Shown here: positions 57,231 to 57,975 of the stretch, piece by piece
How positions within the stretch are numbered: position 1 is the stretch's first letter
How the letters are laid out: each line of letters begins with the position of its first letter
The notes under the pieces: model-generated
Seen by the model: the letters and a program-made list of their open reading frames with translations, nothing else
What the model was told of the DNA's origin: nothing
Database searches by the model: none
Source of the DNA: Roseomonas mucosa
GTDB lineage: Bacteria; Pseudomonadota; Alphaproteobacteria; Acetobacterales; Acetobacteraceae
Reading direction: 5' to 3'
DNA: 64,000 nt
NCBI GenBank assembly: GCA_945878375.1
Contig: CAMDWG010000006.1
Span: forward strand, 62,001 to 126,000
Made by a program: the position numbers and the translations under genes

Positions 57231-57264
57231 GCGACAGCCTCCCCGCCTTGCGAAGCCGCGCAAC

Positions 57265-57424
57265 AGACCATTTGAGAACACCGGACGGGTCGGTTCCGCG
57301 GGTCTTTTCCGCCCCTGCGGCGTCAGCGGACTTGCCGATGCAACCAGCATCGGCGGCGTCCGCTTCCTGGCATGGACGAAAAATCCCCCGCGGACCCTCA
57401 GCCGCCGGCATTCTCAAACGGTCT
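57265..57424. repeat. roughly 160-nt imperfect inverted repeat in a divergent promoter
   Basis: The outer arms AGACCATTTGAGAA (57265-57278) and TTCTCAAACGGTCT (57411-57424) pair with one mismatch. Inside, CCGCGGG (57296-57302) pairs with CCCGCGG (57387-57393). GCGGAC (57326-57331) pairs with GTCCGC (57358-57363), and GCCGATG (57334-57340) with CATCGGC (57348-57354). Reading inwards, the stems keep order and alignment, so the two halves look like diverged inverted copies. No protein is convincingly encoded across it. It may be a palindromic mobile remnant or the template of a structured RNA. Confidence 0.7.
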
Positions 57425-57477
57425 CTGAGCGGCGCCGGCCCTGGCGTGGCGTGGCGCGCGGTGCCACATCGGCCCCG

Positions 57478-57975
57478 ATGCCCGCGCCCCGTATCCGTGT
57501 GGCGGAGGATGCCGGCGGCGCCCTCGCCTACGCCATCCCCTTCCCGCCCGAAGCCACCCCGGCCGTGCGCCCGGCGGCGCTGCTGGATGCCTGGCAGGCC
57601 GCGCGGGACGCGGCAGCGGCCGGGCGCTGGGGACCGCCGCGCACCCTGGTCTTCGCGCGCGGCGACTCGGAGCCGACGGTACTGGCCATCGCCGACCGGG
57701 ACGCGCGCTGCTGGGCCGATGCGGTGGATCGCGACGCCAATCTCGGCACGCTGGCGGGCCTCGCCCTGTGCCTGCGGCTGCTGGCGCTGGTGGAATTGCT
57801 GCCCCGCGCGCCCTGGCTGTCGGCCCTGTTCCAGGTCACAGGCCAGGGGATCGATCTGCACCCGGCCTTGCTGCGCGCGGTGGCGACCAGCCCGCTCGAT
57901 GCAGCGGCGAGGTTCGACGCGGAGGCGTTGCGGGGTCTATTGTCGCACGCATTGCCGGCGCGGGCCTCCGCCTGA
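57478..57975 (+). CDS. hypothetical protein, 165 residues
   Basis: ATG at 57478. Soluble, Ala/Leu/Arg-rich, with one long helical region (LGTLAGLALCLRLLALVELL, about residues 93-112). No signal peptide, membrane segment or catalytic motif that I recognise. The start IRVAEDAGGALAYAIPFPPE and codon bias look genuinely coding. 41 bases before a small lipoprotein gene on the same strand. Confidence 0.75.
   Translation: MPAPRIRVAEDAGGALAYAIPFPPEATPAVRPAALLDAWQAARDAAAAGRWGPPRTLVFARGDSEPTVLAIADRDARCWADAVDRDANLGTLAGLALCLRLLALVELLPRAPWLSALFQVTGQGIDLHPALLRAVATSPLDAAARFDAEALRGLLSHALPARASA

Follow-up and report, generated by a model that had tools for sequence, protein, structure and literature searches.

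We identified a 162-bp inverted repeat in Roseomonas mucosa that is probably a non-autonomous IS5-family transposon (MITE) with a conserved folded module and exchangeable ends. It has the ends, the target type and the copy pattern of elements that IS5-type DDE transposases move in trans, and a folded module of approximately 98 nt is recognisably the same in elements whose ends clearly differ. The copy described first lies in a 64,000-nt stretch of contig CAMDWG010000006.1 (positions 62,001 to 126,000; assembly GCA_945878375.1), hereafter the window.

A near-palindrome at 57265-57424 had been reported in a first-pass annotation made from the letters of the window, and the repeat is real. When 191 nt (57250-57440) were folded as RNA, the plus strand gave -104.3 kcal/mol (z -6.8) and the minus strand -126.3 kcal/mol (z -8.7), and none of 200 dinucleotide shuffles was as stable on either strand. 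The reported span was nearly right, falling one base short on each side when the ends were set by comparison with other copies, and the repeat does lie in a divergent promoter between an amidase and a hypothetical gene (Table 1). The window core scored 106.8 bits against model R2 (G000:C6:119296-119393), the window copy itself being among the model sequences.

Table 1. Positions of the element, its parts and its neighbours in the window
Feature	Position	Strand	Remarks
Complete MITE, 162 bp	57264..57425	-	Minus strand is the better folding one; ends from comparison with other copies
Left terminal inverted repeat CAGACCATTTGAGAA	57264..57278	+	2 mismatches to family consensus GAGACCGTTTGAGAA
Right terminal inverted repeat	57411..57425	-	Exact consensus GAGACCGTTTGAGAA on minus strand
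Left target-site position, CAA	57261..57263	.	Differs from right side
Right target-site position, TGA	57426..57428	.	TNA type
Conserved core hairpin module, ~98 nt	57296..57393	-	Model R2; common to elements with unrelated ends
Apical hairpin GCCGATGC-TGGTT-GCATCGGC	57334..57354	-	Within core
Amidase, left neighbour	start 57218 or 57230	-	PF01425
165-aa gene, right neighbour	start 57478	+	No Pfam or NCBIfam match

The annotation had proposed a search of this genome and its relatives, allowing that there might be no other copies; further copies were found in both. In the own genome, 29 matching rows included 14 long copies (88-100% identity, the window copy counted); a 90-bp deleted copy at C19:29970 (34 bits) came to light separately, through its terminal repeat. 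Five contig ends (C2 end, C13:1, C15:1, C21 end and C23 end) fall inside long copies; thus, the assembly was probably broken by the element, and the copy number is a lower bound. The terminal repeat was present with no more than two mismatches at 27 places of this genome, 25 of which coincided with the earlier element matches and one with the deleted copy on C19. One exact terminal repeat, at C13:103605 (L492:1306), stands alone near the end of its contig (109 bases away); no clear core follows it, and this unassigned repeat could belong to an unassembled insertion sequence (IS). The own genome also contains a second element type, represented by three copies; their ends are like GGGTCCAAACCC, and over short stretches their cores are 76-88% identical to that of the window copy.

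Among 59 genomes searched as relatives, 17 had a match: the own genome, 13 of the 14 others of the genus and 3 elsewhere in the family. A scan of public genomes with a 24-mer from the apex returned 83 stretches, from Falsiroseomonas, Roseomonas, Belnapia, Plastoroseomonas, Paracraurococcus, Roseococcus and several metagenome-assembled genomes; the same 24-mer had no match among viral contigs, and the window copy had none in a plasmid collection. Allowing up to 5 mismatches, we recognised both ends in 79 of the 100 loci fetched, with the consensus end GAGACCGTTTGAGAA. The element measured 161 or 162 bp in 62 of these 79 copies, and 10 formed a subfamily of 185-187 bp (L076, L080, L100, L108, L114, L116, L117, L122, L125 and L127) with an extra hairpin-like stretch of approximately 24 nt in one arm. 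Near contig starts of one genome (G012), L060 and L066 have one flank in common beside an end that does not match, a pattern expected if inverted copies had recombined or been misassembled.

Identical TNA trinucleotides were present on both sides of 34 of the 79 two-ended copies, often within CTNAG, and the two sides of the window copy are unlike. The orthologous amidase and neighbour gene were examined in 12 of the 14 other genus members, and in 11 of these the joined flanks aligned in a single piece over the junction, i.e., the site is empty. Since the junction is poorly conserved in relatives, the original target of the window copy is unreadable. Within 57248-57480, short blocks flanking the insertion, TTGCGAAG to its left and GTGCCACAT to its right, look conserved in several of the orthologous divergent promoters. 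A conserved role as the suggested cis-regulatory hairpin at this promoter is not supported, since 11 of the 12 relatives are without the insertion there. Another suggestion, a palindromic mobile remnant, proved right: there are multiple copies, terminal inverted repeats and TNA duplications, and relatives have empty sites and IS5-family elements with matching ends. The element has the properties of a MITE: it is under 500 bp, dispersed in multiple copies and bounded by terminal inverted repeats, and its copies show a target-site duplication (not in the window copy). At 162 bp it is too short for a transposase gene, and its interior evolves by base-pair compensation; the TNA target and IS5-type ends relate it to the IS5 family.

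Candidate partners were found among IS5-type loci. Element-like ends were present in 9 of 60 loci examined, compared with 2-3 of 60 for control end sets (reversed or shuffled), every one of the latter with 5-6 mismatches. Because the controls reach this level, L140, L142 and L159 are the only loci clearly beyond chance, and the six remaining matches, at 5 or 6 mismatches, carry little weight. The ends of the 895-bp L159 matched with 0 and 2 mismatches of 16, and the 16-mers at the ends of L140 and L142 with 0 and 1, and 1 and 2, mismatches, respectively. IS5-type DDE transposases are encoded by L159, L142, L140, L145, L149 and L286, some in two frames; the IS proteins match NF033580 (IS5 family), and a piece in L310 fell below the Pfam cut-off (L143 and L158 were left out of this family scan). 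L159 is 72% like the DNA of IS12528 of Gluconobacter/Acetobacter over 96% of its own length. No IS with matching ends was recognised in the own assembly.

Beyond the genus, the length of the element is mostly kept and its ends vary. A whole-element covariance model matched 42 of 249 sampled genomes of the family, in 23 of 102 genera. In the set of distant copies (n = 72, with L282 left out as a repeat of L231), 67 are 159-163 nt long, 51 different terminal 10-mers occur, and the two ends of a copy agree at 16 or more of 20 positions in 65; some target sites are of the TNA type and others lie between CTA and TAG. Several cores resemble the window core in primary sequence next to dissimilar ends, e.g., L251 (z 44.9; ends alike at 9 of 22 positions), L237 (z 20.9; 11 of 22), L262 (z 18.4; 7 of 22) and L281 (z 10.2; 9 of 22). 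Six of the 18 compared cores, all very distant (L227, L238, L243, L318, L319 and L322), were within the range of 200 shuffles and L316 equalled it; for these seven, homology of the core is suggested by the profile and the common architecture. In L317 (G041), a core-like hairpin was observed inside an element with long near-perfect terminal repeats around TACCAATGAGCGCTGATAATGACCC.

A model of the core alone matched 46 of 385 sampled genomes of the class, in 38 of 277 genera, often with at least several copies each among the best matches scored (up to 10 per genome). Two body plans were observed, one of approximately 161 bp with one hairpin and one of approximately 270 bp with two inverted hairpins. 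In the longer architecture, seen in most of the extra-family loci examined, terminal arms enclose two cores that lie on opposite strands and are separated by a small hairpin (CCC-TTCG-GGG in several). The model recovered this oppositely oriented second core in 20 of 26 loci. We measured 28 of 36 inspected loci, leaving out L408, L422, L423, L426, L427, L435, L439 and L441; with arms sought within a few hundred bases, 27 of the 28 two-core elements were 263-280 bp and one was 313 bp. The second core was confirmed by the model in 22 of these, and in L418, L430, L434, L438, L443 and L444 the second hairpin is a predicted fold. At terminal positions 7-26, the median identity between two-core elements was 0.30, and within most elements the two arms pair well; copies within one genome have ends that are alike or of few types. 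The two-core elements showed no clear strand preference (18 of 28), two of them had no match in the plasmid collection, and no partner IS was found for this form; in G035, an IS (L143) and a two-core element (L465) do not have ends in common. Core hairpins without recognisable terminal arms were observed in L422 (G495), which adjoins a CCTTCGACAAGCTCAGGGTGAGG stretch, and in L426 (G397). One genome outside the class, G785 (L440, L480-L482), has core elements with three end types.

The proposal of one long conserved RNA hairpin proved partly correct, in that the fold is kept by compensatory changes, more so on one strand, and the covariance analysis proposed with it found such changes between copies; the orthologous promoters themselves are without the element. 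In 78 aligned genus copies, gathered by sequence similarity, 31 of 47 consensus pairs showed changes on both sides that kept the pair, and so did all 23 pairs in 56 core sequences from many genera, a set mostly gathered with the structure model, which beyond the genus favours intact pairs. The observed covariation was above that of all 500 shuffles and above slid controls. No Rfam family was matched above its gathering score in the window or in six loci from other genomes, a known Rfam family was thus rejected, and E-value scans returned sub-threshold matches to the element plus true matches to adjoining tmRNA and tRNA, and nothing else.

The minus-strand sense folded better in 78 of 79 genus copies, which were oriented by sequence and are kin, not independent; the model strand folded better in 71 of 72 distant copies, a partly circular count given that orientation came from the fold-scoring model. 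When changes were placed on a tree of 73 copies, 102 turned Watson-Crick pairs into G-U and 43 turned them into A-C (p below 1e-6); after the pairs had been slid by 2 or 3 columns, both kinds were about equally frequent (48/39, 28/35, 38/34 and 41/31). Double Watson-Crick changes on single branches numbered 57 and fell to 0-3 with slid pairs. Compensated changes were relatively commoner on internal than on terminal branches (p 0.002), and the G-U excess was equal on both (p 1.0). These tree tests left out L060, L066, L134, L135 and L136, and alignment A1 left out L054, which has an internal deletion. That pairing is better kept on one strand suggests that what folds is an RNA or single-stranded DNA. 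A G-U excess that is uniform over branches would also result from a mutation bias of a looped strand. The strand bias is unlikely to stem from transcription-coupled mutation, since copies are found in either orientation to host genes (38/39).

The strongest competing explanation is that the palindrome is maintained by DNA-level events alone, i.e., by cruciform or template-switch repair that copies one arm to the other, the folded strand having no function. Such copying would account for ends that match each other closely even where they are lineage-specific, as in the two-core elements, and for the double changes on single branches; two-core elements, which have no clear strand preference, themselves amount to large inverted repeats. 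However, it would erase asymmetric internal loops, and such loops are conserved across genera; it is also blind to strand, yet G-U changes exceed A-C changes and this excess is absent with slid pairs. We consider this explanation unlikely, if still the most serious rival.

Placement relative to host genes was assessed for 138 copies whose neighbours on either side could be predicted with a simple codon-usage gene finder, for which the window served as training sequence; 7 further copies were unclassifiable, and the total holds at most three duplicates (L216/L096, L221/L134 and L223/L097 are the same places in both copy sets). By these predictions none is inside a gene: 77 are between tandem, 48 between convergent and 13 between divergent genes, the window copy being among the rare divergent cases. 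Sixty-three of the 138 abut a stop codon exactly, which, along with the low number (13) in divergent positions, might suggest an RNA kept for the benefit of the host, such as a 3' UTR hairpin or a small RNA. Yet in the window and the loci found with the apex 24-mer, CTNAG sites were at stops in 80 cases, at other non-coding places in 80 and in coding sequence in 262, so non-coding CTNAG sites are at stops equally often (80 of 160; p 0.49), and preferential insertion at stop codons was rejected. Copies are at stops because TNA reads TGA or TAA on one or the other strand, i.e., position follows the target motif. The orientation of copies between tandem genes (38 same, 39 opposite) led us to reject a host-orientation effect and, like the empty window site in 11 of 12 relatives, speaks against usefulness to the host. 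A host function of the element is not supported, and an explanation on this basis appears quite improbable.

In a sample of the phylum, 48 of 398 genomes had a match, 35 of them outside the class and many with low scores. The architecture was recognised in four of five inspected loci from outside the class (one core in L435; two hairpins in L440, L443 and L444), with L441 lacking it, and in four of five further loci within the class, with L439 lacking it. Beyond the class we accepted only loci with verified architecture, and weak matches opened in G754, G761 and the second one of G961 were not accepted. In the stretches L485-L487, which have weak core matches 1.6-5 kb apart and were not counted as members, no recognisable autonomous version was found among the open reading frames listed. 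These weak matches raise the question of whether the similarity of cores reflects convergence of GC-rich hairpins caught by a permissive covariance model: many outside-class scores are about 25-43 bits (e.g., G657, G754 and G761), and the opened matches in G754, G761 and one of G961, like L439 and L441 (2 of 10 phylum loci), are without clear architecture. Against this, features outside the model (near-constant length, matched ends and a second inverted core) recur with the matches, and the primary-sequence z of the core is 18-45 between some different end classes. We give convergence as little credence as a benefit to the host. The last alternative, a chance inverted repeat in a GC-rich region, is refuted by the fold scores and the many homologous copies.

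A non-autonomous IS5-family element with a conserved module thus remains the best explanation, and a possible mode of maintenance can be outlined. The element would be moved in trans by IS5-type transposases, and the module of approximately 98 nt would be its older, persistent part. The module may be kept because the folded strand serves the element; RNA is its likeliest form, which would fold when transcription of a neighbour gene runs through the element, and single-stranded DNA is the other candidate. By gaining the ends of another transposase, the element could outlast the loss of one, and new ends might be reached in two steps, a change at one end and then its copying to the opposite end by way of the hairpin. 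Two-core elements have one forward core per strand, such that transcription in either direction would yield one; this inverted form fits the RNA reading and is no proof of it. More speculatively, we can imagine the core as a novel structured RNA that is widespread among Alphaproteobacteria and also occurs outside them: a parasite of parasites that swaps terminal repeats and outlives transposase lineages as SINEs outlive their partners, with the inverted two-core form guaranteeing a functional fold in either direction of transcription. This broader proposal is tentative, and we would not yet favour it.

Several known systems resemble the element in part. IS5-family MITEs and IS5 elements are likewise short and non-autonomous, or have IS5-like terminal repeats and TNA or CTAG-type target sites; unlike such MITEs, the window element has as its interior an independent folded module found with several end types, not a deleted IS5 gene. 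NEMIS/Correia elements are MITEs whose transcripts form long hairpins. The same is described for QMITE1 and QMITE2 of Coxiella, some copies of which give small RNAs, and QMITE1 is reported to have no orthologues in other genomes (PMC5896051). In contrast to our element, a conserved core that changes its ends is not described for QMITE or NEMIS/Correia in the portions of PMC5896051 and PMC3733652 at hand, a comparison made by description only. REPs are intergenic palindromes of 20-40 bp, sometimes paired in inverted orientation and associated with RAYT, according to the accessible text of PMC3733652, which also reports CGTC-type repeats to be missing from Acetobacteraceae. REP/BIME elements are similarly palindromic, intergenic and sometimes inverted in pairs; the window element differs in its size (about 161 or 270 bp), its terminal repeats and, in the short form, its TNA duplication, and its copies, mostly 161-162 bp, are outside the 20-40 bp size of a REP palindrome. 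A further likeness, judged by description only, is to the Rhizobium intergenic mosaic elements (RIME) and AB/C palindromes, which are also alphaproteobacterial intergenic palindromic repeats (PMC2573895, in part); some two-core elements may be identical to RIME. A class-wide conserved folded core with exchangeable ends was not described in the available portions of the open-access literature (PMC3733652, PMC5896051, PMC10969869, PMC4666352, PMC2573895 and PMC2680597). A MITE is a known kind of element, and as far as the accessible descriptions go the new part is the conserved folded core that recurs with exchangeable ends.

Bacterial MITEs are usually viewed as stumps of one insertion sequence, with selection acting mainly on the ends. 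Here, the interior is conserved and the ends are replaceable. Annotators gain a model with which to recognise a repeat that disrupts assemblies and adjoins many genes. If our explanation is true, the element would offer a case, open to testing, in which a non-autonomous element has a folded module of its own under selection, can change its transposase and can spread through a class and outside it.
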